A program made the position numbers and the translations under genes. The notes under the pieces are model-generated. The model ran no database searches, was not told the DNA's origin, and saw only the letters and a list, made by a program, of their open reading frames with translations. This document shows, piece after piece, positions 1-12,299 of a stretch of DNA of 12,299 nucleotides. Where the stretch lies: assembly GCA_003523945.1 (NCBI GenBank), contig DOFS01000550.1, positions 1 through 12,299 of the forward strand, in the 5' to 3' direction. Every line of letters starts with the position of its first letter. The stretch's first letter is position 1. This DNA comes from Nitrospiraceae bacterium (lineage in GTDB: Bacteria; Nitrospirota; Nitrospiria; Nitrospirales; UBA8639).

Positions 1-53
1 AAGCACACTAAGAACCCAAAAGAATCCTAATTAGGAAAGGAAATTCAGAAATA

Positions 54-341
54 ATGGAGATACCGACCTATGGTGAATTATTAAAACTCGTCTGGTTTCT
101 GGTATGGCGACACGTGGTGATTCTGATGTTTGTGAGTATGACGATCGGATGGGCGGTTCCTGTGATCTTCAATAGCACGATCTCTGAAGACTCTCAGTAT
201 ATTTTAGAAATCTGCATTTATGGCGTGCTATTCTTCGGCATCACCCCGTTTATTTTGAAGACCCTGTTTCAAAAACAATTTCAAGGCTTTCAAGTCATCT
301 TCCAACGCGAAACCGACTCACCACCACTTTCCTCATCATAA
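54..341 (+). CDS. Small membrane protein of unknown function, two predicted helices
   Basis: This 95-residue protein is not one I recognise. It has two strongly hydrophobic stretches, at about residues 19-39 and 50-72, joined by a short polar loop containing SEDSQ. A basic, glutamine-rich tail follows. This predicts an inner-membrane protein with a helical hairpin. The ATG at 54 follows a purine-rich AGGAAAGGA at 33-41, a believable ribosome binding site slightly far from the start. Residues 7-20 carry aromatic and charged residues just before the first helix, and no catalytic motif is visible. Downstream there is only non-coding structured DNA, so it is not obviously in an operon within this window. 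Coding status is supported by the binding site and the coherent membrane pattern, not by recognised homology. Confidence 0.6.
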   Translation: MEIPTYGELLKLVWFLVWRHVVILMFVSMTIGWAVPVIFNSTISEDSQYILEICIYGVLFFGITPFILKTLFQKQFQGFQVIFQRETDSPPLSSS

Positions 342-353
342 TATTGGGTTCAT

Positions 354-515
354 TCAGCATATGATGATTTCGGTCTCCTTCCGGTGTGTCACTGCAATAT
401 TCGTCTCTCCTGGTCCGACGCCTGCCATCTGGCCTAAGGGAGGGACGCTCTCATCAACTGGCGGGCCTTGTTTGAGCCCAGCGAGTTGGCCCGCCTTCCT
501 CGGATTCGCGTCCAT
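354..515 (-). other. Possible 53-codon ORF inside a structured intergenic repeat
   Basis: A minus-strand reading frame starts with ATG at 515-513 and ends with TGA at 356-354. It would encode a 53-residue, glycine- and proline-rich peptide beginning MDANPRKAGQ and ending EIIIC. It lies almost wholly inside the interrupted hairpin at 417-543. No convincing ribosome binding site precedes it, and the sequence constraint may come from the fold rather than from translation. It is listed because such frames recur whenever the repeat recurs and are easily annotated as genes. I favour a non-coding explanation. Confidence 0.15.
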
Positions 516-543
516 CCGCTCTCATAAGGCCAGATGGGGCGTC
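417..543. repeat. Long interrupted inverted repeat (structured intergenic element)
   Basis: The two arms pair in three stacked blocks. The outer block is GACGCC (417-422) with GGCGTC (538-543), continuing after a two-base bulge (423-424) as CCATCTGGCCT (425-435) with AGGCCAGATGG (527-537). The middle block is 439-448 with 508-517, nine pairs and one G-A mismatch. The inner block is GGCGGGCC (460-467) with GGCCCGCC (488-495), which closes a 20-base loop. The sequence CGCTCTCAT also occurs as a direct repeat on both arms (446-454 and 517-525). About 34 base pairs over 127 bases is far more than chance would give. It may be a non-autonomous mobile repeat or a structured RNA, and a single copy cannot distinguish these. 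Confidence 0.7.
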
Positions 544-553
544 ACTGGTTTTG

Positions 554-620
554 GGTCCTTTTGCCGAAACAAAAGGGCCTCGGCTGCCGGGCCGAAACCC
601 GGCAATACGGGAAATACCGT
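554..620. repeat. Tandem small hairpins, two sharing the loop CCGAAA
   Basis: Hairpin one has stem GGTCCTTTTG (554-563) with CAAAAGGGCC (570-579) and loop CCGAAA (564-569). It pairs perfectly apart from one T-G wobble. Hairpin two has stem TGCCGGG (585-591) with CCCGGCA (598-604) and the identical loop CCGAAA (592-597). A weaker third has ACGG (607-610) with CCGT (617-620). They start 11 bases after the long inverted repeat ends and probably belong to the same element. No T-run follows, so they do not look like ordinary terminators. Confidence 0.65.
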
Positions 621-782
621 GGGGGCGAGATTTGGCAACACAAATAAAATCCCTTCACCTTCCAACAATTTTCTGCACCCCCCATAATGTATTCCTTTGA
701 ATTCAAACCATCATATGATAAGCCAAGAACCTTAAACGCTCTATGATCAAAATATTTGCTCAACACACATTCTGAAACTCAT

Positions 783-1553
783 ATGAAAATCGCCACCTGG
801 AACGTCAACTCGATTAAAGTCCGGATTCCCCACTTGATGGAATGGGTCAAACAGGCCAACCCGGACATTGTCCTGCTGCAAGAACTTAAAACCACAGAGG
901 ACCAGTTCCCCAGAATGGCCATTGAGGAGCTGGGCTATAATATGGCCATAGTCGGACAAAAAACCTACAACGGAGTCGCAATTCTCTCAAAAGCCCCGAT
1001 CCAGATCGAACACACCTTATTGCCTGGTGCCCCATCTGACGAACAAGCCCGCTACGTGGAAGCGGTGGTGGGAAACGTTCGAGTCGCTTCAATCTATTTA
1101 CCCAATGGGAATCCGGTGGAAACCGAGAAGTTTATATATAAACTTGCCTGGTTGGATCGACTGATCACGCATGCGCAATCGCTCTTAGCCCTGGAAGAAG
1201 CAGTGGTGTTAGGGGGAGACTTTAACGTGTGTCCCACAGACCATGACGTCTATGATCCAAAGGGATTTGCCGACGACGCCCTTTGCCGTCCAGAATCCCG
1301 TGCCCGCTTTCGCGCCCTTTGCCATCTCGGGTACACCGATGCCCTTCGAGCCCTGCACCCCGAATTGGGTCTCTACACCTATTGGGATTACCAGGCCGGC
1401 CGATGGAATCGGGACGAAGGGCTCCGCATCGACCATCTCCTGCTCTCGCCCCAGGCGGCGGACAGATTGGTTGCATCGGATGTGGATCGCGGGCCTCGCG
1501 GGATGGACAAACCTTCCGATCACACTCCCGTCTGGTGTGAACTTAAAAAGTGA
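783..1553 (+). CDS. xthA: Exodeoxyribonuclease III (AP endonuclease)
   Basis: This 256-residue cytoplasmic enzyme cuts DNA 5' to abasic sites and degrades one strand from 3' ends in base-excision repair. The endonuclease/exonuclease/phosphatase fold is clear from its motifs in order: MKIATWNVNS at residues 1-10 (active-site Asn7), LLQELK at 31-36 (metal-binding Glu34), YNGVAILSK at 62-70, GGDFNVCPTDHDVYDP at 144-159 (Asp146, Asn148), RIDHLL at 215-220 (Asp217), and the terminal SDHTPV at 245-250 (Asp246, His247). Length is normal for the XthA family. The frame stays open back to a TTG at 756, but the ATG at 783 matches the family's N-terminus exactly and is preferred, although its ribosome binding site is weak. 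It stands alone between two long intergenic regions. Confidence 0.96.
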   Translation: MKIATWNVNSIKVRIPHLMEWVKQANPDIVLLQELKTTEDQFPRMAIEELGYNMAIVGQKTYNGVAILSKAPIQIEHTLLPGAPSDEQARYVEAVVGNVRVASIYLPNGNPVETEKFIYKLAWLDRLITHAQSLLALEEAVVLGGDFNVCPTDHDVYDPKGFADDALCRPESRARFRALCHLGYTDALRALHPELGLYTYWDYQAGRWNRDEGLRIDHLLLSPQAADRLVASDVDRGPRGMDKPSDHTPVWCELKK

Positions 1554-1849
1554 GTCCTTCCGAACCTGTGCCCTTCTGATCACGTTTTCTCACGCACGCT
1601 TACTCTATTTCGGGACCGACCTACACACTGTTCCCCCAGACAGCTCATATACAACGGTGAACTCCCGTTCAACGATCTCCTATTAAAATAATATTCAGGC
1701 ATGTTGTTAAACAAACGAGGGCACGAACTTTTTGCATTTTTACTGAAAATTTTGCATGATTTCTGATCTTATTCACCAATGGTTACCCGGCAGCCGCAGC
1801 GCACTCCAAACTCAAGATTTCCATGAGTGAAAACAACCTAATTGAGGCA
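1554..1849. other. Intergenic stretch without a recognised gene
   Basis: Nothing coding is convincing between xthA and the DUF3326 gene. A small hairpin, TGAAC (1658-1662) with GTTCA (1667-1671) and a four-base loop, follows xthA but has no T-run. An exact direct repeat TTTTGCAT lies at 1730-1737 and 1750-1757, starts 20 bases apart, within an AT-rich patch. This would suit a protein binding one face of the helix. A 17-codon frame at 1823-1876 (MSENNLIEAL...) begins here but has no clear ribosome binding site. Confidence 0.4.
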
Positions 1850-1878
1850 TTGACCGGCACCTTGATGACGACTTAAAT
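1850..1878 (+). promoter_or_regulatory. Predicted sigma-70-type promoter for the DUF3326-NRPS genes
   Basis: TTGACC at 1850-1855 matches the -35 consensus at five of six positions. TTAAAT at 1873-1878 matches the -10 consensus at four of six, with a 17-base spacer. It lies about 98 bases upstream of the DUF3326 start, leaving a moderate 5' untranslated region. This is a prediction by eye. Confidence 0.4.
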
Positions 1879-1975
1879 ACTAAGGGTCGATGTTCTCCAA
1901 TCAACCACGCGGGACTTTGCAACACCCAACCAAGGGAATCGGAAACTCAATAATTTACTAATTTTGTAGGTGAAC

Positions 1976-3280
1976 ATGCTGATCAAAAATGAATCCTTCA
2001 GAGTTTTTCGCCAGGAAGAAGAAACGTGGTTGAATTGTATTTCCCTTAGCTTCACCAAGCATTTGAAATCGAATCACTATCCGTTACGCTTTGCCATCGT
2101 AGCCGTAGAAAAAAATGAAATCGTGCTTGAAACAACTATTTTGGAATATGACCCTCAGCAATCTTATTCTCAAGGATTCAAAAATATAGAAATTCTTCAT
2201 CCGAGAAGGAAATCGTTCCAGGATTCCTTCTTTGGCGTCGTCCAGATTATTCCTACAGGAATTCGTTGTGAATTTGGCGGATTTGCAGGCGATGCTTGTC
2301 CGTCAACCAATCTGTTGGCCGCCACAGCAGATTTTCTCGTCACACATCCCAATGCGGTCAATGCCTCAGAGATTAATGAAATGGCTCAAAATGTTCTGTA
2401 CGTGGAGGGAAAATCCTTAGACGATTTTATGCTCGGTCATTTGGGACTCCGGCAGGTTACCAGTAATAAAATCGGCACCTTTGTGGATTCCCTGGGTATT
2501 GATTACCTGAATGAGGTCATTAACACCCTCAATGCAGCCTGTGCGGTCAAAGGATTGGACTCAAGCATGTATATGCTTCTCCAGGAAGAACTGGGCGTCA
2601 AGATTGCCTGGACGGAAAGTGGTTGTGCGGTAGGCACGGTCTTAAACCCTGAAGCCATTGTAAAAGGAGTGGAAAAACTGATTGCCCACGGCGTAACCGC
2701 GGTGGGAGGGGTTTCGGTTATTCATGGTGTGACGAAGGACATGTTTGATCAGCATTTGCAGGGGAAAATGCCCAATCCTTCGGGTGGAATAGAGGCCATC
2801 ATTACCCACCTAATTTCTAAAATTTTCAGAATCCCGACCGCTCATGCCCCCCTGCCTTACTACCAAGACATTAAGGAAAAAGACATATATAACCCTCGAG
2901 CATCGGCAGAATTCATTTCTACCCCCCATTACTTTTGTGTTTTAAAAGGCCTGGCAAAGGCACCCCATCTCATTCCCCTTTTGGATCTCGATAATCCTCC
3001 TCCCCATCTCATCACCCTAAATCATATTGGTGCCGTCGTTGTTCCCGCCTCCTGTTTGGGAGGTATTCCAGCCTTAGTTGCCGAATTCAGCAATATTCCT
3101 TTAATTGCCGTACGGGACAATACCACTATCCTGAATGTGACAAATGAAAAGATGCACATGAAGAATGTTATTGAAGTGAATTCGTATCTGGAAGCAGCAG
3201 GAGTCGTAATGGCATTACGGGAAGGAATTTCCCTTAAAAGCCTTCGTCGCCCCATCGAATGTGTCAAAAGAGTACAGTAG
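1976..3280 (+). CDS. DUF3326 family protein
   Basis: This protein of about 434 residues matches what I recall of DUF3326, a family known mainly from cyanobacteria and plant plastids, with no established function. Conserved stretches, in numbering from the GTG at 1970, are IPTGIRCEFGGFAGDA (94-109), THPNAVNAS (125-133), YVEGKSLDDF (144-153), TESG (215-218), AHAPLPYY (291-298), PRASAEF (309-315), VVVPASCLGG (356-365) and VNSYLEAAG (403-411). No signal peptide or membrane helix is visible, so it is probably cytoplasmic. About 90 N-terminal residues precede the first core motif and look family-poor. The ATG at 1976 is preferred because AGG at 1968-1970 sits five bases ahead of it; the GTG at 1970 overlaps that site. 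The NRPS gene begins 134 bases downstream on the same strand, suggesting a shared pathway. The fold suggests a small-molecule enzyme, but no reaction can be assigned. Confidence 0.85.
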   Translation: MLIKNESFRVFRQEEETWLNCISLSFTKHLKSNHYPLRFAIVAVEKNEIVLETTILEYDPQQSYSQGFKNIEILHPRRKSFQDSFFGVVQIIPTGIRCEFGGFAGDACPSTNLLAATADFLVTHPNAVNASEINEMAQNVLYVEGKSLDDFMLGHLGLRQVTSNKIGTFVDSLGIDYLNEVINTLNAACAVKGLDSSMYMLLQEELGVKIAWTESGCAVGTVLNPEAIVKGVEKLIAHGVTAVGGVSVIHGVTKDMFDQHLQGKMPNPSGGIEAIITHLISKIFRIPTAHAPLPYYQDIKEKDIYNPRASAEFISTPHYFCVLKGLAKAPHLIPLLDLDNPPPHLITLNHIGAVVVPASCLGGIPALVAEFSNIPLIAVRDNTTILNVTNEKMHMKNVIEVNSYLEAAGVVMALREGISLKSLRRPIECVKRVQ

Positions 3281-3414
3281 GGTTAAAACGGGCGAAAGGG
3301 TTTTAGATCAACATCGAAAAACAGGGCATACCTAGCCGCGGTGTAACCACCGATTCAGATGACACATTCGAGATGATGTCCCATTAAACTACTGGAAAAT
3401 TCAGAATCAATAAG

Positions 3415-6400
3415 ATGTCACACCAACAAAAATCCCAATATTCAGTATCTGAAAACATTCCGCTATCAATAGCCCAGAAGAGAATTTGGGTGATGGAACA
3501 ACTTGAGCCCGATTCGCCATTTTCTAATCGTCCGTTGGCCATTCGATTGAACGGAATCTTAAACGAGGCCACACTCATACAAAGTCTAAGCGAAATTATT
3601 CGAAGACATGAAGCATTACGGACCGTTTTCCCCATACAAGATGGGCAACCGTTCCAAAAAATTTTACCCAGTTGGACTTTGACACCGGAAATCATTGATT
3701 TGGGTTCTCTCCCCGAGCCACACCGTGAAGCCGAGGCCGGGAAAATCCTAAAGAGAGAAACCCAAAAGAAGTTTGACCTGATAAACGGACCCTTAATAAG
3801 AGGCGTGCTGCTACGCCTATCGGACCAAAACCACATTCTTCTCTTGCTAATGCACCATTTAGTCTTTGATGGTTGGTCTGAAAGCATCTTTTTGAGTGAA
3901 TTACGGAACTTCTATGGTGCGTTCTCTCAGACAAAGAATAATAAGGCAATCTCAAACCAAAATATTCCCCTCCCAGAACTTCCCATTCAATATAAAGATT
4001 TTACTCTCTGGCAACACAAACGAGTGAACGAGGCCTTTTTATCCGACCATTTGAATTATTGGCAGGCAAAGTTAGGGAACGCCCTTTCCCCCCTGAGGGT
4101 ACCAACCGATTATCCAAGGCCATACACACGGACTTTTCAAGCTGGATCCGTATCCACGCTATTTCCTCAGGCCTTAGTTGAATCCCTGACAACCCTGAGT
4201 CACATGGAAAAAGTGACTCCCTTCATGACAGTGTTGGCCCTTTTGCAAACGCTGCTTTATCGATACACGGGGCAACAAACTATCAACGTGGGAGTACCGG
4301 TAGCCGGGCGAAATCATTCCGAGACTGAACCCCTTATTGGTCTGTTCATGAACACCCTAGTAATGTCCAGTGATTTCATCAATGACCCAACATTCAGACA
4401 GCTCCTGACTCATGTGAAACAGGTCACCTTACAAGCCTTTTCCCACCAGGAATTGCCATTTGAAAAAATTGTGGAGGTTTTACACCCAATCAGGGAAAGA
4501 AACACCTGGCCTCTTTTTCAAGTTTTGTTAAACTTTCGCAATCTACCCCAAACCGACTCACGGCCGACAGAGCATTTACACATTGAACCATTTAGCTTTG
4601 AGTGGGGAATGATCGGAGGGTTGGACTTGTCCCTTGATATAAAAAAATGCCCTGAGGGGATGCATTGTCAATTCAGTTATCCGGTCGATTTATTTCGAGA
4701 AAAGACCATCCAATCCTTCGCGAAACATTTCAGAAATTTACTGGAAAATGTTATAGCCACTCCGGATAAACCGGTCGGGACCCTCAATCTCCTGACACCT
4801 GAGGAACACCATCAAATCCTCATTGAATGGAATAACACCCACGAAGAATATCCCAATGCCTGTGTCCACGAGTTAGTGGAAAAGCAAGTAAATTTGACCC
4901 CGAACGCCGTTGCAGTGGTTTTTCAGGAACATCAATTAACCTATGAAGAACTTAATCAATCTGCCAACCAGTTGGCTCATTATCTCACTAAACAAGGCAT
5001 TCCTCCTGAGGCAACAATAGGAATCTGCGTAGACAGTTCGCTTGAGATGGTCATCGGACTGCTCGGTATTTTAAAAGCAGGATGCGCCTACGTTCCCTTA
5101 GACCCCAGGTATCCGCATGAACGGCTGGAGTATATGGCGGAGGACAGTAAGATCTCCTTCTTATTAACACAAGGTCATTTAAAGACCGTTCTGTCAAACC
5201 ACAAAGCAGGGATCATCTGTCTTGATAGCGATAGGGATCTGTGGAGTCGCGAAAGCATACAGAATCTCCAGATTGGATGCACAGAAGATAGCCTCGCATA
5301 TGTCATGTATACGTCGGGCACAACCGGCCAACCGAAAGGCGTCATGGTTACCCATAGAGGGGCCTGCAACCATCTTTACTGGAGACATGATTACTTCGGC
5401 CTGACACCATCCGACCTGGTACTTCAGAAAGCATCTTTAAGTTTTGACGATTCCGTTTGGGAGATATTTGAACCCTTAACAAGTGGCGCTCAATTAGTAA
5501 TCGCCCAGTCAGAACAAAATCAAAATGTTTGCTACCTCATTGAAACGGTTATTCAGCAGAAAATTACAGCCCTATGTTTGGTACCTTCCCTCCTTTGGCT
5601 ATTTCTCGAAGAACCGAATGTGCGTAGGTGCCATACCTTGAGACGAGTCACAACCGGCGGCGAAGAACTTTCCGTGGAACTGCAAGAAAAATTCTTTCAG
5701 CTTTTGAACGCCGATTTATACAATGGTTACGGGCCCACGGAAGCCACTATTGCGGTGAGCTACTGGAAATGTAAACCCGGCGGGAATTCCCCAATCGTGC
5801 CCATAGGAAAGCCGATTCGCAACACACAACTCTATGTACTCAACCCACAACTCCAACCGGCTCCCATCGGCGTTACCGGAGAAATTTTCATTGGCGGGAA
5901 TAGCTTGGCAAGAGGGTATCTCAATAATCCGGAATTAACAGGGGAAAAATTCATTAACAATCCTTTTGGGCAAGGGGTGCTCTATCAAACAGGAGATTTA
6001 GGACGTCATTCGCGTGATGGAAACCTCGAATTTATTGGAAGGATTGATGATCAAGTAAAAATTAGAGGCATTCGGGTTGAGTTAGGGGAGATAAAAAATT
6101 CATTAAATCAATACCCTCAAATCGAAAAGTCAGAGATTGTGACCACAGGCAATAGCAAAAAAGATCAAATGGTCATCGCGTATTATCTTTCAAAAAATCG
6201 CCAACAGATTTCCCCACAAATTTTAAGAGAATTTCTCAAACACAAATTGCCCGATTATATGATACCTGCAGCTTTTGTTTATCTGGCCAGTATTCCTATA
6301 ACCCCCAGCGGCAAAATTGACCGAAACGCCTTACCCAGTCCCCAAAGAGAGCACTATATTAATAAAGAAGTGGTACAACCAAAAACGGAAACGGAGAAAA

Positions 6401-6630
6401 ATCTAACCAGGATTTGGCAAGAAGCGTTAAATCTATCTGAAGAAATTAGCATTCATGATAACTTCTTTGAGCTAGGAGGACACTCTTTGTCCGCGTTTCG
6501 TGTGGTTTCGCGAATTCGTGACATCTTTAAAGTTGAACTACCCTTAAGATGCCTTTTTGAATCACCGACTCTGGCTGAACTAACAAAGGTGTTGGATGTG
6601 GCCCTGAGCCTGGAACAGGTTCATAAATGA
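3415..6630 (+). CDS. Single-module non-ribosomal peptide synthetase (C-A-T)
   Basis: This 1071-residue protein is one complete elongation module. The condensation domain (about 10-460) has the catalytic motif HHLVFDG at 147-153. The adenylation domain (about 485-975) has YTSGTTGQPKG at 632-642, NGYGPTEAT at 770-778, YQTGD at 857-861, GRIDDQVKIRG at 875-885 and PSGKIDRNALP at 964-974 with the invariant Lys967. The carrier domain (about 985-1060) has DNFFELGGHSL at 1015-1025, with Ser1024 as the phosphopantetheine site. There is no thioesterase, reductase or epimerase, and the protein stops soon after the carrier domain. Hand alignment to GrsA gives the pocket code D-D-W-C-V-T-G-I-A-K. Asp678 implies an alpha-amino acid, but I recognise no known specificity. 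The start has only a weak ribosome binding site. The gene looks more AT-rich than xthA and the mutase. It probably forms a unit with the DUF3326 gene upstream. No phosphopantetheinyl transferase lies in the window. Confidence 0.96.
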   Translation: MSHQQKSQYSVSENIPLSIAQKRIWVMEQLEPDSPFSNRPLAIRLNGILNEATLIQSLSEIIRRHEALRTVFPIQDGQPFQKILPSWTLTPEIIDLGSLPEPHREAEAGKILKRETQKKFDLINGPLIRGVLLRLSDQNHILLLLMHHLVFDGWSESIFLSELRNFYGAFSQTKNNKAISNQNIPLPELPIQYKDFTLWQHKRVNEAFLSDHLNYWQAKLGNALSPLRVPTDYPRPYTRTFQAGSVSTLFPQALVESLTTLSHMEKVTPFMTVLALLQTLLYRYTGQQTINVGVPVAGRNHSETEPLIGLFMNTLVMSSDFINDPTFRQLLTHVKQVTLQAFSHQELPFEKIVEVLHPIRERNTWPLFQVLLNFRNLPQTDSRPTEHLHIEPFSFEWGMIGGLDLSLDIKKCPEGMHCQFSYPVDLFREKTIQSFAKHFRNLLENVIATPDKPVGTLNLLTPEEHHQILIEWNNTHEEYPNACVHELVEKQVNLTPNAVAVVFQEHQLTYEELNQSANQLAHYLTKQGIPPEATIGICVDSSLEMVIGLLGILKAGCAYVPLDPRYPHERLEYMAEDSKISFLLTQGHLKTVLSNHKAGIICLDSDRDLWSRESIQNLQIGCTEDSLAYVMYTSGTTGQPKGVMVTHRGACNHLYWRHDYFGLTPSDLVLQKASLSFDDSVWEIFEPLTSGAQLVIAQSEQNQNVCYLIETVIQQKITALCLVPSLLWLFLEEPNVRRCHTLRRVTTGGEELSVELQEKFFQLLNADLYNGYGPTEATIAVSYWKCKPGGNSPIVPIGKPIRNTQLYVLNPQLQPAPIGVTGEIFIGGNSLARGYLNNPELTGEKFINNPFGQGVLYQTGDLGRHSRDGNLEFIGRIDDQVKIRGIRVELGEIKNSLNQYPQIEKSEIVTTGNSKKDQMVIAYYLSKNRQQISPQILREFLKHKLPDYMIPAAFVYLASIPITPSGKIDRNALPSPQREHYINKEVVQPKTETEKNLTRIWQEALNLSEEISIHDNFFELGGHSLSAFRVVSRIRDIFKVELPLRCLFESPTLAELTKVLDVALSLEQVHK

Positions 6631-6712
6631 TTTTACCTGTATGCGTTAGCCTCATCTCCTTAATCTAAAGCTCAAAAAATTGCATTTTGTACTCTTTCCC
6701 AAATTCTGAGTT

Positions 6713-6753
6713 TAGTCCTCTGGAAGATGGGGACTCTTTTCCTCCAGGGACTA
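6713..6753 (+). promoter_or_regulatory. Hairpin with an alternative pairing partner between NRPS and mutase genes
   Basis: TAGTCC plus CTGGA (6713-6724, one bulged T at 6719) pairs with TCCAG plus GGACTA (6743-6753), giving 11 base pairs around an 18-base loop. The loop contains a second GGACT (6731-6735) that could capture AGTCC (6714-6718) instead, so two exclusive folds are possible. No T-run follows, so a simple intrinsic terminator is unlikely. It lies about 95 bases ahead of the mutase start. Confidence 0.4.
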
Positions 6754-6847
6754 GCAAGAAAAGGGAAAATAATCTATCCTTATGAATCTCTTTGTATGCA
6801 CTCCCCTTTCTTGGAATTTCCGATAAACCTCATTTGTTCGCTTTCTT

Positions 6848-8275
6848 ATGGAATCTATTAAATTCGGGACTTCTGGGTGGCGGGCCATTGTGGCCGAAGA
6901 CTTTACCGTCCGGAACATCCGTATCGTGTGTCAGGGTATCGCTCAATTTCTTCGTCAACAGAAACTGGGGCAACAAGGCATTCTTATTGGCTACGACGCA
7001 CGTTTTTTAGGTGAGCATTTTGTCAAAGTTGCCGCAGAGGTCATGGCGTCTCATGGGATCCCTTGTCTGATTTGCGACCGGGACACCCCGACCCCGGCCA
7101 TCTCCTACCACGTGGTCAGCCGCAAATTATCAGGAGCCATGAATATCTCAGCCAGCCACAATTCTGCTGAATGGAATGGGATCAAATTTACACCGGCCTG
7201 GGGAGGACCGGCGCTGCCTGAAACAACCAAGGCCATTGAACTGCGCATTCTACCCCTGTTGCATGGAGAACACATCAAATGGCTCCCCTGGGAACGAGCC
7301 GTACATGATGGCATGGTGCGGCACTTCGATCCAAAACCGGACTATCTGAAAGCCCTGGAATCCATGGTGGATCGCGACCGCATCCGGAACGGCAGGATCA
7401 GGGTCATTTTTGATCCTTTGTATGGAACCTCCAGGCATTACCTTGACGAATTCCTACGCCAGGCCGGCGCAAAAATGGCCGTCCTACATCATTGGCGAGA
7501 TCCATACTTTGGAGGATTTCGACCAGAACCGACCGACGAAACCCTTGAGGACCTGAAAGAGACCGTACGCCGTGAAGGCGCACACCTCGGCCTGGCAACC
7601 GACGGAAATGGGGGCCGGTTTGGTATCGTGGATGCCGACGGCACCTACATTCAAGCCAATTATATTTTGGCCGTCTTGTTGGATTATCTTATTCGGAGCC
7701 GGCAATGGTCAGGCGGAGTCGCCCGCTCGGTGGCCACTACCCATCTCATTGATGCCGTGGCGGCACACCATGGACTCACCATTCACGAAACCCCGGTGGG
7801 ATTTAAATACATCGGAGAATTGCTCGCGAAAGGGGAAGTGGTCTTTGGGGGGGAAGAAAGTGCCGGGATGTCCATCAGGGGTCATGTGCCGGAAACAGAT
7901 GGGATATTGGTTGGGGCCTTAATCGCGGAGATGGTGGCCTTTACGGGACAGACCATTCAGGAGTTACTGAATGACCTCTTTGCACGAGTCGGAACCGTAT
8001 ACCCCACACGACAAGATCTGCCGATGAGCGAACAGCTCAAGACACAGGTCAAGCAGGTCCTTGAACATCCGCCATCGGAGCTTGCGGGAGCGGACGTCAT
8101 CCATGTCAATAAACTGGATGGCTGCAAACTCATTCTGCCGGATGACTCCTGGTATCTTATTCGAATGTCCGGAACTGAATCCATCGTCCGATGCTATGGC
8201 GAAGCCAAAACCCCTGAGCGACTCACCGAGATTATGAACGCCGGAAAAGAACTACTCCATCTTCCCGTCAGGTAA
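6848..8275 (+). CDS. Phosphoglucomutase/phosphomannomutase family protein
   Basis: This 475-residue cytoplasmic enzyme belongs to the alpha-D-phosphohexomutase family, which interconverts sugar 1- and 6-phosphates for glycogen, nucleotide-sugar and envelope synthesis. Features in order are the N-terminal FGTSGWRA (6-13), the phosphoserine loop SASHNS at 101-106 (catalytic Ser103), the metal-loop region ATDGNGGRFG at 250-259, the sugar-binding loop GGEESAGMS at 334-342, and the phosphate-binding loop RMSGTES at 439-445. Length is normal. Several loops depart from consensus. The serine loop ends in Ser rather than Pro. The metal loop, usually DGDADR or a near relative, keeps only Asp252 of the three acidic ligands. 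The last loop is GTES rather than GTEP. Activity is therefore likely but not certain. The ATG at 6848 puts the conserved FGTSG at the usual place. It reads in the same direction as the NRPS, 217 bases away, and is probably a separate housekeeping gene. Substrate preference cannot be read from the sequence. Confidence 0.9.
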   Translation: MESIKFGTSGWRAIVAEDFTVRNIRIVCQGIAQFLRQQKLGQQGILIGYDARFLGEHFVKVAAEVMASHGIPCLICDRDTPTPAISYHVVSRKLSGAMNISASHNSAEWNGIKFTPAWGGPALPETTKAIELRILPLLHGEHIKWLPWERAVHDGMVRHFDPKPDYLKALESMVDRDRIRNGRIRVIFDPLYGTSRHYLDEFLRQAGAKMAVLHHWRDPYFGGFRPEPTDETLEDLKETVRREGAHLGLATDGNGGRFGIVDADGTYIQANYILAVLLDYLIRSRQWSGGVARSVATTHLIDAVAAHHGLTIHETPVGFKYIGELLAKGEVVFGGEESAGMSIRGHVPETDGILVGALIAEMVAFTGQTIQELLNDLFARVGTVYPTRQDLPMSEQLKTQVKQVLEHPPSELAGADVIHVNKLDGCKLILPDDSWYLIRMSGTESIVRCYGEAKTPERLTEIMNAGKELLHLPVR

Positions 8276-8304
8276 TTCCTTAAAATCCCTTCTTTTTCCT
8301 ACTT

Positions 8305-8332
8305 ATCGATCTTCTCTCGATTTGTTTTTTTT
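8305..8332 (+). terminator. Weak intrinsic terminator candidate after the mutase gene
   Basis: A short stem, ATCGA (8305-8309) with TCGAT (8317-8321) and a 7-base loop, is followed directly by TTGTTTTTTTT (8322-8332). The T-run is strong but the stem is short and AT-rich. It starts 30 bases after the mutase stop codon. Confidence 0.4.
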
Positions 8333-8511
8333 CGCCTCCTATTTTCCTTGGTGAGACTTTCGCCTTAAGAAGAGCAAATTACTCCAAATACTAGACTGCC
8401 AGCCCATCACAGGGAGCAATGGACCAAGGTAAGCGGGTAACAGCAAGCTAGGTTTGTGGAGAACATGGTACGAATTTAAGGATTAAAGAAAGGCCGAGAA
8501 CAGAATGAGTG

Positions 8512-8558
8512 GAAAGTCATTGGGGGGTGGACAGACCGTTCTCCCCCCAATGACTTTC
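8512..8558. terminator. Perfect 16-bp inverted repeat at the 3' end of hpf
   Basis: GAAAGTCATTGGGGGG (8512-8527) and CCCCCCAATGACTTTC (8543-8558) are exact reverse complements around a 15-base loop. The repeat begins 14 bases beyond the hpf stop codon, between convergent mutase and hpf genes, so it could end or protect transcripts from either side. Neither strand has a T-run after the stem. A canonical intrinsic terminator is therefore doubtful; a 3' stabilising hairpin or protein-bound site is also possible. Confidence 0.55.
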
Positions 8559-8572
8559 ATTGGGACGTGACG

Positions 8573-8950
8573 TCAGACAGCAGTCAGTAGCATCGCTTTT
8601 TCAGTCTTTTTGGCGATGGCCTTAGCATTTCGGGCCAACCGCTTTTCTTCAATTTTTTCGAGTTCATGCTCGATCGCCTGAAAGGCTGAGCGAATGGCTT
8701 CTTCAAAGGTTTTCGATTCTTTTCTGGCGGTCACCGTTCGACGCCGGGGAAGCGTCACGACGACCAGTGCCTCCGCGTTATCGGCACCTTTTTTATGATG
8801 GGCATTTTTGGTGAGTGTAACACGGGCATGAATGATGCGAATGGTATCCGTCTGCAACGCCTCAGTCCGTCGCCCAATTTCGGCTTTCCACCGAGGGGTC
8901 ATGCCAACGTTTCGGCTCTCAATTTTTACATCCAGCGATTGTTCATCCAT
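8573..8950 (-). CDS. hpf: Ribosome hibernation-promoting factor, short form
   Basis: This 125-residue protein looks like the S30AE/HPF-YfiA family, which binds the ribosomal decoding region and silences or dimerises ribosomes in stationary phase. The expected strand-helix-strand-strand-strand-helix order is visible: LDVKIESRN (6-14), helix 18-32, the central strands IRIIHARVTLTK (37-48) and EALVVVTLPRR (60-70), then helix KTFEEAIRSAFQAIEHELEKI (80-100). The tail (101-125) is rich in Lys, Arg and Ala, without the extra C-terminal dimerisation domain of long HPFs. The frame opens at a GTG (8956), but that G is the last base of the AAGGAG ribosome binding site (8961-8956). The ATG at 8950, five bases on, is the better start. 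It is transcribed away from msrB and appears monocistronic. A role in sigma-54 regulation, as for some hpf genes elsewhere, cannot be seen here. Confidence 0.85.
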   Translation of the reverse strand: MDEQSLDVKIESRNVGMTPRWKAEIGRRTEALQTDTIRIIHARVTLTKNAHHKKGADNAEALVVVTLPRRRTVTARKESKTFEEAIRSAFQAIEHELEKIEEKRLARNAKAIAKKTEKAMLLTAV

Positions 8951-9120
8951 AGACACTCCTTCTTTGGCTGTTCGTTAAATCTGTGAAACATCCAACACCT
9001 TCCGGCCTGTTTTTCGGATGACGAAATCCTGAGTCAATCCTCCTTTTTTTTCGGTTTTCTACAGTGTAAAAATTTCCCTTCCTCCAGTCAAAGTCTTATC
9101 TCCGTAATTGTAATTTTTTT

Positions 9121-9148
9121 TTGCTTTGTAAGACTGGTACAGTATAAC
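9121..9148 (+). promoter_or_regulatory. Predicted sigma-70-type promoter of msrB
   Basis: TTGCTT (9121-9126) and TATAAC (9143-9148) are separated by 16 bases, with an AT-rich upstream patch (9105-9120) resembling an UP element. The direct repeat AGACTGG lies at 9131-9137 and 9149-9155, on either side of the -10 box with an 18-base pitch, which could be an operator for a repressor. Transcription would start near 9155. Confidence 0.5.
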
Positions 9149-9157
9149 AGACTGGAG

Positions 9158-9180
9158 AACGCTGGAGGATTTCCAGTGTT
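9158..9180 (+). promoter_or_regulatory. Hairpin near the predicted 5' end of the msrB transcript
   Basis: AACGCTGGA (9158-9166) pairs with TCCAGTGTT (9172-9180), nine pairs with one G-T wobble, around the loop GGATT. It begins almost at the predicted transcription start and ends 10 bases before the ribosome binding site GGAGGA (9191-9196). This suggests a 5' stabilising stem or a translational control element. Confidence 0.45.
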
Positions 9181-9203
9181 TGAGATCAGAGGAGGAATAC
9201 CAG

Positions 9204-9725
9204 ATGTCCAATAACCTGAGTGTAAATAGGAGAAATCTCATGAAAATCGGGGTAGCATTAGGTTTCGGAGCTCTCGCTAAGACTTTCGGCGTGGCATTGG
9301 CCGCCCCCAATCCTTCAATCGGGGAGTCAGGCATCACCAAAATAACGAAAACGGATGAGGAGTGGAAGGCGCTCTTGACCCCGATGCAATATCGTGTGTT
9401 ACGCCATGAAGACACCGAGCCGCCCTTTACCAATGAATATCATCAAAGTAAAGCCAAAGGCATCTACCAATGTGCGGGATGTGCGTTGCCACTTTTTTCT
9501 TCCGACACGAAATTCGACAGCGGAACCGGATGGCCCAGTTTCTGGCAACCGATTTCGGAAAAAGTAGTCGAAACCCGCACCGATTGGAAATTGATTTATC
9601 CACGAACCGAAGTCCATTGCGCCCGATGCGGTGGCCACCAGGGACACATATTTGACGACGGCCCACCGCCGACTGGATTACGCTATTGTATTAATTCTGC
9701 GGCGTTGAAATTTGTTCCGGCATAG
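9204..9725 (+). CDS. msrB: Peptide-methionine (R)-S-oxide reductase MsrB, Tat-exported
   Basis: This 173-residue enzyme reduces methionine-R-sulfoxide in proteins. Residues 8-35 form a twin-arginine signal, with NRRNLMK (8-14), a hydrophobic core, and ALAA before a likely cleavage near residue 34. It should therefore fold with zinc in the cytoplasm and act in the periplasm. The SelR domain (about 50-172) has zinc pairs CAGC (90-93) and CARC (139-142), GTGWPSFW (107-114), GHIFDDGP (147-154) and the catalytic RYCINSAAL (160-168, Cys162). The only five cysteines are the four zinc ligands and Cys162, so no internal resolving cysteine exists. An external reductant must regenerate it. The ATG at 9204 has GGAGGA (9191-9196) seven bases ahead and is preferred over the in-frame TTG at 9180. 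Its last 35 bases overlap the convergent regulator gene. Confidence 0.96.
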   Translation: MSNNLSVNRRNLMKIGVALGFGALAKTFGVALAAPNPSIGESGITKITKTDEEWKALLTPMQYRVLRHEDTEPPFTNEYHQSKAKGIYQCAGCALPLFSSDTKFDSGTGWPSFWQPISEKVVETRTDWKLIYPRTEVHCARCGGHQGHIFDDGPPPTGLRYCINSAALKFVPA

Positions 9726-12279
9726 CAAGGCGCTGATGCACTAATTGCTCGACTGCCGGAAAATGTCGTTCCGGAATATTGCGAAACCGTTTTCGACAGT
9801 CGGCAATTGCGGCTTCAACAGACGGATAGTGTCTAGAAGAAGGAAGAAGGTTTTTTGTATACTCGCGCAACCGTCCCGCGACCATGCGGATCAAGGTTTC
9901 ATCCCCGGCCAGCGACTGCGCCGCCGCTTCAATATTTCCGTGATTGTCGACTAGGGCTTGAAATCCGAGACCCTTCAAACGTTGAGTAACGGTGCTGCGA
10001 TCCCACCCTAGGGCCTTGGCTGTCGCCTGCATATCGAAACCATGACGTCGGAGGCATTCCAACACCATTTCATCCTCTAATCGTTCCAGCTCCACCCGGC
10101 CATGTCCTTCACCCTTCACGCGCGGGATAACCGGGCTACTGAGGTGCAAATCCGCTTCGGTAATAAGAGACCCGGTGGCCAGGGCGACCGCTTGAGCCAC
10201 GGTTTGTCGAAGCTCTCGAATATTGCCCGGCCATCGATAGGCCATGATCCCATCCAATGCCCCTTGCGTGAACCTCAAATCCATTCGATTCTGTTGCCGG
10301 GAAAAATACTGCAGGAAGAATTGAGCCAATAGCAGGCAATCTTGCTCCCCTCGTTCCCGCAGAGGAGGCAGAGTTAACACAATACTCCGTAATCGATAAA
10401 ATAAATCTTCCCGATATCGGCCTGCCTCCACATCTTGGTGAAGATTGCAATTTGTCGCCGCGATAATTCGCACATCCACCTGAGTAAGCCGGCTTTCTCC
10501 AACCCGGTGAAATGACCCGTCCTCCAGAAACCGCAGTAATTTTGCTTGCAAATCGGATGGAAGCTCGCCGACTTCATCCAAAAAGAGCGTTCCCCCATTT
10601 GCCGTTTCAATATAACCCTCACGACCAACCGCGCCGGTAAAAGCCCCCTTCACATGGCCGAATAATTCTCCTTCAAATAACTCCGATCGGATCGCGGCCA
10701 AATTTACCGACACAAATGGGCCACGATGCCGCGGACTCAACGCATGGGCCGCTCGAGCAAACACCTCTTTTCCCGTGCCCGTTTCTCCCAATAGAAGAAT
10801 GGGGCTCTGGGTCCCGGAGGCTTTTTTTAAATCCTGAAAAACGCGGAGGACCGAAGGAGCATGGGTCAGAATATGAAAGGACTCACATTCTTGAAGTAAT
10901 GCCTGATTCTCGCGGGATTCGGGACGCTGATGCCCAGCATGCTGCATGGCCGGCACCTGCCGCCGAAGATCCTGCAATTCAATCTGCAACCGGTCAATCT
11001 GTCGTCGGGTTTCTTCTACCTCGGCTTGGGAAAACTCTAATTGGCGAGACACCCCCCCTTGCTGAGATTCTAAACCTTCAATAACCGTCGCCGACCGGTG
11101 GGCATGATCTTGTGCCACATGTAAGCGAGTTTCGAGTTCCCGGACATGCTGCTGTTTCTCTGCCAGTTCTGTTTCCAATTGCTGTAGCTGCTGTCGCCCT
11201 TGAGTGATCCGCCGTCGAATAATCGACCGGGACCGGGACAACCGCCAAGCCAGCGATCCCCCTAAGGTCATTCCTAAAGCCAATCCTGTACTCAAGATCG
11301 GCCACACCCAACCACTGAGAAGTCCCCACAAAAGACCAAGCCCCCCAAGAAGAATACCGGCTAAGCCAATCATCCCCAGGCGGGTTGGCGGAGTTTCCCA
11401 AAGAAGGAAACAGGCAAAGAACAGGGCTACACTCGCTGTTGCAGGAAAAGCGACCCACAAAGGCGTCCGGGAGACCCATCCGTTAGTCAGCACCGCATTG
11501 GTCAATAAGGCATGAAGAAATTCAGCCGGCACCTCGGATTCCCACGGGGTTGAAAGAGTTGGTTGCTTCGACACAGGAGAAAAAAGGATCACTACTTTTC
11601 CGCGAAACAACTTTGTTAATCGATCGCGATCTTTACTCTGAACGATGTTCCACACATCCACAAAGGCATGCCTGGGAAGGGATGAAGTCGCCCAATGTCC
11701 AATAAACCGGAATTGAGGGGCGTTGGTCTTCGGTTTCATAGCTGTGTCCGTTTCCGATAACAACGAGGCCATTACGAGACCGATCGGAGGATGCGGCGAT
11801 GAACCTGCAGAAAAAGGATGGGACTTCACACCCCGAAACACCCCATCCGCATCCGGTATCAATTCCAGCGTTCCCAAGGCGGTTGCCGCATCCGCCAAGG
11901 CGGGAGGAACCGAATCCGGATAGACCACAGACCCGACTCGTTTGGTCACTTCAGCCAGTCGAACCAGTCCAGCCAACCCCCCACATTCCGAGGCTATCGG
12001 GAAGGACACATCAATTGAGGGTACGATGACAGCAGCGCCAGCCTCATGAAGGGCCAGCAGTGTGGACTCCAACACGGAAAGATCCCATAGTCCTTCCCCA
12101 CATAACGCGGGACTGGTGCTCTTCGTGACCGTCACCATGACCAGTGAAGGGTCGACAGGTCCAGGTGCCATGTGAGCCAGTTGCCAATCAGTCAACCATC
12201 GTTCCCCCTGTGGAAAAAGAGAGGAGACGCTAAAAGCCAACAATGTGCTCACCAGTGAAAAGGCGAGGGCCAATGCCAT
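9691..12279 (-). CDS. Membrane-bound sigma-54 activator with CHASE2-like sensor domain
   Basis: From ATG 12279 this protein has 862 residues. An N-terminal helix (about 2-22) leads into a CHASE2-like extracytoplasmic sensor (about 40-265). Three closely spaced helices (273-294, 301-321, 325-345), typical of CHASE2 proteins, and a long coiled coil (359-441) follow. The sigma-54 AAA+ domain (about 468-700) has Walker A GETGTGKE (498-505), the sigma-54-contacting GAFTGA (545-550), Walker B GTLFLDEVGE (563-572) and the arginine-finger region YREDLFYRL (622-630). A Fis-type helix-turn-helix lies at about 735-772, with an unusual C-terminal extension of about 90 residues. It should sense a periplasmic or membrane cue and activate sigma-54 promoters without a separate kinase. 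The frame is open upstream of 12279 to the window end, through a Lys-Thr repeat, and no ribosome binding site precedes that ATG, so the true start may lie outside. Its 3' end overlaps msrB by 35 bases. Confidence 0.9.
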   Translation of the reverse strand: MALALAFSLVSTLLAFSVSSLFPQGERWLTDWQLAHMAPGPVDPSLVMVTVTKSTSPALCGEGLWDLSVLESTLLALHEAGAAVIVPSIDVSFPIASECGGLAGLVRLAEVTKRVGSVVYPDSVPPALADAATALGTLELIPDADGVFRGVKSHPFSAGSSPHPPIGLVMASLLSETDTAMKPKTNAPQFRFIGHWATSSLPRHAFVDVWNIVQSKDRDRLTKLFRGKVVILFSPVSKQPTLSTPWESEVPAEFLHALLTNAVLTNGWVSRTPLWVAFPATASVALFFACFLLWETPPTRLGMIGLAGILLGGLGLLWGLLSGWVWPILSTGLALGMTLGGSLAWRLSRSRSIIRRRITQGRQQLQQLETELAEKQQHVRELETRLHVAQDHAHRSATVIEGLESQQGGVSRQLEFSQAEVEETRRQIDRLQIELQDLRRQVPAMQHAGHQRPESRENQALLQECESFHILTHAPSVLRVFQDLKKASGTQSPILLLGETGTGKEVFARAAHALSPRHRGPFVSVNLAAIRSELFEGELFGHVKGAFTGAVGREGYIETANGGTLFLDEVGELPSDLQAKLLRFLEDGSFHRVGESRLTQVDVRIIAATNCNLHQDVEAGRYREDLFYRLRSIVLTLPPLRERGEQDCLLLAQFFLQYFSRQQNRMDLRFTQGALDGIMAYRWPGNIRELRQTVAQAVALATGSLITEADLHLSSPVIPRVKGEGHGRVELERLEDEMVLECLRRHGFDMQATAKALGWDRSTVTQRLKGLGFQALVDNHGNIEAAAQSLAGDETLIRMVAGRLREYTKNLLPSSRHYPSVEAAIADCRKRFRNIPERHFPAVEQLVHQRLAMPEQISTPQN

Positions 12280-12299
12280 GGTCTTGGTCTTGGTCTTGG
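12280..12299. repeat. Tandem hexanucleotide repeat at the window edge
   Basis: GGTCTT is repeated three times and followed by GG at the end of the window, so the array may continue beyond it. On the minus strand it reads AAGACC repeats that would encode alternating Lys-Thr, in frame with the sigma-54 activator, immediately before its first membrane helix. Confidence 0.7.

Follow-up and report, generated by a model that had tools for sequence, protein, structure and literature searches.

Adenylation (A) domains of nonribosomal peptide synthetases (NRPSs) normally hold the alpha-amino group of the substrate through Asp235, according to two sources (PMC11355689; PMC11253843), the second of which also describes VinN-type A domains whose Asp235 holds a beta-amino group and whose position 236 is bulky. 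For DUF3326 (PF11805), a further source lists a cyanobacterial duf3326 gene next to ferredoxin fed3 and DUF650 (PMC4284462). We analysed a 12,299-nucleotide stretch of a Nitrospiraceae genome (GCA_003523945.1, contig DOFS01000550.1, positions 1 to 12,299; hereafter the window), in which a DUF3326 gene (ATG 1976..3280, + strand, 434 residues) lies 134 bp ahead of a same-strand gene for a one-module NRPS with condensation (C), A and thiolation (T) domains (3415..6630, + strand, 1071 residues). One-module NRPSs are already known; the new element is a recurrent partner of unknown function, and the two genes probably cooperate in making a small molecule. Among 14 control genomes, PF11805 was matched only in Synechococcus elongatus, and DUF3326 also occurs in plants.

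Linkage and co-divergence of the two families

The domains and reading frames of the window agreed with the first-pass annotation, which had described a DUF3326 gene directly ahead of a stand-alone C-A-T synthetase. A scan of representative genomes returned two close relatives of the DUF3326 protein, one in an Anaerolineae metagenome-assembled genome (MAG) (L003, 67% identical) and one in a Bryobacteraceae MAG (L004, 64% identical). In L003, a gene for a C-A-T-thioesterase (TE) protein follows DUF3326 at a gap of 0 bp; in L004, the next gene after DUF3326, 3 bp away, encodes an acyl-ligase-T protein, and a C-A-T-TE gene comes after it. In two further genomes, G565 and G306, DUF3326 adjoins multimodular NRPS clusters with gaps of 36 bp and -4 bp; these four gaps assume that each gene begins at its first start codon. 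The neighbourhood check therefore bore out a recurrent linkage of the two families, with DUF3326 directly beside NRPS-type genes in all four genomes, of which the two MAGs belong to phyla other than the host's.

Searches with the window DUF3326, which could overlook very distant members, identified carriers in 3/396 genomes of the phylum of L004 and 4/400 of the phylum of L003; at class level, carriers numbered 1/376 for L003 (L003 itself) and 3/379 for L004 (L004 and two new ones). Ten distinct carriers were read, host included: five were NRPS-linked (the window, L003, L004, G565 and G306, with at least 39% identity to the window DUF3326), three had an NspC-like decarboxylase neighbour, and two had neither. 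The five carriers without an NRPS neighbour were more distant (34-36% identical in the searches), and the NRPS tie does not extend to the DUF3326 family as a whole.

Among the candidates scored, 569 homologues of the DUF3326 protein were found at E <= 0.001, with identities of 62-100% across the best 120 of them. Within the best 120 relatives of the NRPS, a contig size was given for 115, of which 15 were one-module proteins of <1150 residues. Six of them, counting that of the window, lay on a contig of exactly the same size as a contig carrying one of 119 listed DUF3326 proteins, and none of the 100 longer NRPSs did so. Equal contig size points to a shared contig only indirectly; these matches suggest five further linked contigs beyond that of the window. 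One of the five is from the filamentous cyanobacterium LEGE 11480, the source name recorded for both proteins (P0011, P0203) and listed in the taxonomy as Romeriopsis navalis.

The divergence of DUF3326 tracked that of its NRPS across eight linked pairs, five of them paired by equal contig size (Mantel r = 0.87, permutation p = 6e-4), and the correlation rose to r = 0.96 when L003 was excluded. Such co-divergence would follow from joint inheritance alone, and physical contact is not implied. The linkage shows a functional tie between the two genes and leaves the step of DUF3326 undefined.

The single predicted promoter that had been placed ahead of both genes was not recovered. The only + strand sigma-70-like match in 1500-7000 lies at 3137, inside the DUF3326 gene, and promoter-like matches overall were below those in shuffled sequence (5 vs. 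a mean of 9.2). The consensus scan found no terminator-like site between the two genes; terminator-like matches in the region were not above chance (3 vs. a shuffle mean of 6.0), and a terminator-like hairpin 3' of the NRPS gene (6714..6735, + strand) is a consensus match only.

Insertion site and genome context

The pair is more AT-rich than its neighbours, as the first-pass annotation had noted: GC content was 44.9% for DUF3326 and 44.3% for the NRPS gene, vs. 49.8-53.6% in the five other window genes measured. DUF3326 was absent from 58/58 relatives and was present in 1/295 sampled genomes of the host's phylum, namely the host itself. The pair is flanked on the left by an exonuclease III-like gene of the endonuclease/exonuclease/phosphatase family (756..1553, + strand) and on the right by a gene of the phosphoglucomutase/phosphomannomutase family (6848..8275, + strand), whose proteins are 96-97% and 91-92% identical, respectively, in the closest same-genus relatives; judged from these sequences, the flanking genes are native to the host. 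In eight relatives (G018, G010, G002, G009, G007, G008, G019 and G013), four of whose sites were also aligned to the window, the two flanking genes lie only ~0.15-0.3 kb apart on one contig. In G003, G005, G006, G015, G014 and G017, the gap between the flanks spans 1.2 to 10.3 kb.

Eleven stretches, from nine relatives and from the host's own contigs C127 and C538, were compared with the window. DNA similarity stopped at window positions 1541-1544 in 10/11 stretches, those holding the left flank, and restarted at 6840-6848 (6737 in one) in 10/11, those holding the right flank. The inserted stretch accordingly extends at most over 1544..6847, between the two flanking genes; the short spacers of the near-empty sites could not be aligned to the window, and the borders are approximate. 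Besides the pair, the gap between the flanks contained no further frame of at least 80 residues, apart from those that overlap the named genes or run antisense to them, and no terminal repeats were found for the inserted stretch. The near-empty site in relatives and the rarity of DUF3326 in the phylum support transfer of the pair as a unit, which the first-pass annotation had surmised. Its wider interpretation, a pathway built on the pair, is strengthened by the recurrent linkage, the co-divergence and this site, and loses the single promoter.

Within the genus, the interval separating the exonuclease III-like gene from the phosphoglucomutase gene (window 1544-6847) is an insertion hotspot, and its cargo differs among relatives: in L042-L046 it holds resolvase-like, RadC-like, toxin-antitoxin-like, HNH-like or SIR2-like frames (translations read by eye, no family search). 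The host genome is a MAG (83.8% complete, 4.9% contamination), and its contigs C127 and C538 carry second copies of both flanking genes (proteins 96% and 93% identical, the latter partial) with other neighbours, which suggests that the bin mixes two strains with different islets. Also near the pair in the window are S30AE/HPF-like, MsrB and CHASE2/sigma-54 activator genes. The claim that no other biosynthetic gene lies nearby held for the eight window frames scanned; the host genome as a whole has two further NRPS contigs. One of them, C273 (L029, L030), is 33.8 kb long and mostly NRPS, with a 4987-residue frame bearing four A domains and more NRPS frames adjoining; the other, C636 (L031), the third NRPS contig, holds a 1129-residue frame resembling an acyl ligase, T and C.

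Features of the two proteins

The DUF3326 protein consists of an N-terminal region of ~85 residues and a PF11805 core, matched over the full length of the model (283 bits, cut-off 25, model positions 2-337 of 337; residues 90-426, counted in the frame opening at GTG 1970). The in-frame GTG at 1970 would lengthen the protein by 2 residues, and ATG 1976 is the likely start because the database copy of the protein has 434 residues. A stretch of ~85 N-terminal residues beyond the Pfam match (window 1976-2230) recurs across this group of DUF3326 proteins, and the pattern YPLRF...E-EAT is conserved in it. The motifs PTG, GG.AGDA.P, N.S, Y.EG, NP.GG.EA, AH.P, R...E..S and Y..AAG were kept across eight DUF3326 proteins of three clades, and Cys100 was invariant in 50 close relatives. 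The AlphaFold model had a mean predicted local distance difference test score (pLDDT) of 84.7 for the whole protein and 86.3 for the core, with predicted template modelling scores (pTM) of 0.89 and 0.88; it displays alternating alpha/beta elements, with several conserved loops of low confidence. From partial structure matches, a two-lobed Rossmann-like alpha/beta protein is predicted. No NCBIfam family matched the DUF3326 protein at E <= 0.001, and no solved protein chain matched it in sequence. In the open-access literature searched, we found no paper giving DUF3326 a function, no occurrence of the string 'PF11805', no description of a DUF3326-NRPS pairing and no occurrence of the pocket strings DDWCTGG(I/V)A described below.

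In the NRPS, three domains scored above the Pfam cut-off (Condensation 12-469, AMP-binding 489-836, PP-binding 997-1059), and their motifs are intact: HHLVFDG in the C domain, FDDSVWEIF/NGYGPTEATIAV in the A core and LGGHSL in the T domain. By its C motif, A core and T serine motif, the protein would be classed as a C-A-T elongation module. No Pfam match was found beyond the T domain, which stops 12 residues short of the protein's end; it thus differs from a complete stand-alone NRPS, in which a thioesterase or reductase follows the T domain. PF00975 (thioesterase) was also absent from the precomputed domains of all 14 other listed one-module NRPSs.

The A-domain pocket, read by alignment, is DDWCTGGIA, with the usual Lys next (GKIDR). 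We compared 16 pocket rows, comprising the window, the second module of L004 and 14 other one-module database rows, several of them near-identical. The pocket DDWCTGG(I/V)A was present in 15/16 rows, and the remaining row had Ser instead of Cys at 278. As a check on the pocket reading, other modules in the same alignment yielded what we take to be the codes for Thr, Ala, Val and Asx. To our knowledge, DDWCTGG(I/V)A fits no specificity code. A second Asp at position 236 is unusual, and the presence of Asp at both 235 and 236 suggests that the substrate carries a second positive group.

Candidate pathway, alternatives and relation to known systems

We tentatively read the pair as a horizontally acquired, near-minimal two-gene cassette: the NRPS would load an unusual amino acid, and DUF3326 would provide or modify a building block. 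The chemistry, inferred from domains and neighbours, would run as follows. With Asp at both 235 and 236 in its pocket, the A domain would charge the T domain of the same protein with one unusual amino acid, to which the C domain would couple an acyl or aminoacyl group; for the Bryobacteraceae version, the donor of this group would be the acyl-ligase-T protein whose gene lies between those of DUF3326 and the NRPS. DUF3326 would be an enzyme that supplies or tailors the amino acid or the acyl unit. A thioesterase would release the product in the Anaerolineae and Bryobacteraceae versions, and the window version would use another route. This role is assigned to DUF3326 because of its tie to A and T domains, its alternative tie to pyridoxal phosphate (PLP) decarboxylases in three loci, and its presence both with and without a thioesterase. 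In those three loci (G817, G604 and G068), the longest frame of an NspC-like PLP decarboxylase overlaps DUF3326, an arrangement in keeping with an amine or amino-acid unit as the substrate; these decarboxylases scored 214-286 bits, under the NCBIfam cut-off of 409 for true NspC. Such overlapping genes were located in the distant loci L017 (8146-14299), L018 (7768-10357) and L011 (7654-10180), and L017 additionally holds a PaaK/FlxY-like AMP ligase.

Several observations weigh against the tentative reading. The NRPS of L003 has the pocket VDWDTGLIA and a C domain without an intact HHxxxDG, the DDW pattern was absent from the pockets of G565 and G306 (seven read), and the modules of these two genomes had mostly ordinary-looking codes. 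The NRPS pockets beside DUF3326 thus differ, and one common loaded product is therefore unlikely. Cys100 was not kept in the three decarboxylase-linked DUF3326 proteins. The structure search with the DUF3326 model gave partial matches to different Rossmann-like lobes and no stand-out relative, so neither family nor function can be assigned to the protein. Bilobal racemase/decarboxylase-like enzymes, such as arylmalonate decarboxylase, were considered as possible fold relatives, for which a common architecture over most of the chain would be expected. Nine of the 15 one-module NRPSs had no equal-size DUF3326 contig; they may lie on other contigs or have no DUF3326 partner. G1642 and G1455 had neither an NRPS nor an NspC-like neighbour (frames of at least 110 residues, read by eye, no family search). 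Finally, the phosphopantetheinyl transferase family PF01648 was not found in the host genome at its 83.8% completeness and was matched in 10/14 control genomes; genome incompleteness may explain the missing match. At L053 (7676-9214) and L054 (795-2069), distant DUF3326 genes again have neither kind of neighbour; near the first lie two HisZ/HisG-like genes and one resembling a DNA methyltransferase, and near the second a UvrA-like gene, all read by eye with no family search.

A role after loading, in which DUF3326 acts on the aminoacyl or acyl-aminoacyl thioester carried by the T domain, modifying it or setting it free, and takes the place of a thioesterase in the window, would suit the missing thioesterase match in the window NRPS, the 0/14 PF00975 matches among the other listed one-module NRPSs and the tight gene spacing in relatives. 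We consider it rather doubtful: release cannot be the role common to these proteins because L003 and L004 combine DUF3326 with a thioesterase domain, and no carrier domain was found among the eight scanned DUF3326 neighbours in G817, G604 and G068, where frames of <110 residues were unlisted and a small stand-alone carrier could escape. It is a little less probable still that DUF3326 is an accessory protein, such as a self-protection factor, chaperone or product sensor, since the polar motifs GDA, N.S, EG, NP.GG.EA and AH.P kept in eight proteins of three clades look catalytic, and the association with decarboxylases in three loci occurs without an NRPS.

The insertion hotspot gives some weight to two further explanations. 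Relatives carry toxin-antitoxin-like, SIR2-like and resolvase-like frames at the site, and an Imm5-like immunity gene lies 3' of the NRPS gene on the same strand in L003 (11977-12513); both would be in keeping with a small-molecule product acting in anti-phage defence. This support is only circumstantial, PADLOC models gave no matches to the six proteins scanned at E <= 0.001, and we regard a defence role as very unlikely. The varying cargo of the gap would equally suit genes that travel together in an islet with no biochemical tie; a chance or selfish neighbourhood is, however, largely refuted by the recurrence of the pairing outside the genus, its tight spacing and the matched divergence, and it is the least probable of these explanations.

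Returning to supply or tailoring of the loaded unit, a bolder form, which we hold to be possible at best, is that DUF3326 represents a new enzyme class, two-lobed and Rossmann-like with no match among solved structures, that would synthesise or modify a non-standard amino acid; this could be a diamino acid, which would suit Asp at 235 and 236. A DDWCTGG(I/V)A domain would then load it, and the two genes would form a mobile pathway, extending from cyanobacteria to Acidobacteria, whose product is an N-acylated amino acid not yet described. If this were true, cyanobacterial and plant DUF3326 proteins would carry out a similar reaction, so far unrecognised, in the metabolism of amino acids or amines. 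The compact transferred unit with its near-invariant pocket offers a handle on the chemistry of an uncharacterised family, and the pair may signal a small, overlooked class of natural products.

Compared with known systems, the window DUF3326 shares with the cyanobacterial PF11805 proteins a profile match over the whole core and differs from them in the ~85 residues before the Pfam match and in its NRPS partner; in contrast to the cyanobacterial duf3326 locus, the scanned window frames gave neither a ferredoxin nor a DUF650 match. Carboxynorspermidine decarboxylase (NspC)-like enzymes of the PLP-dependent family adjoin or overlap DUF3326 in three distant genomes, whereas no NspC-like gene was present among the window frames scanned. 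Like the beta-amino-acid A domains VinN, IdnL1 and HitB, the window A domain has a pocket that is unusual at positions 235/236; it has Asp235, and its residue 236 is Asp rather than the bulky hydrophobic residue of VinN-type domains. A shortened beta13-beta14 loop is a further mark of beta-amino-acid A domains. The L003 pocket, which lacks Asp235 (VDW...), resembles what we take to be the beta-alanine code. The closest likeness in architecture is to single-module N-acylating NRPSs (C-A-T or C-A-T-TE), whose C, A and T domains are intact in the window protein; in the L004 version, an acyl-ligase-T protein and a TE domain are present in addition. The window version differs from them in having neither a loading module nor a TE domain, an unusual pocket and DUF3326 as its partner.
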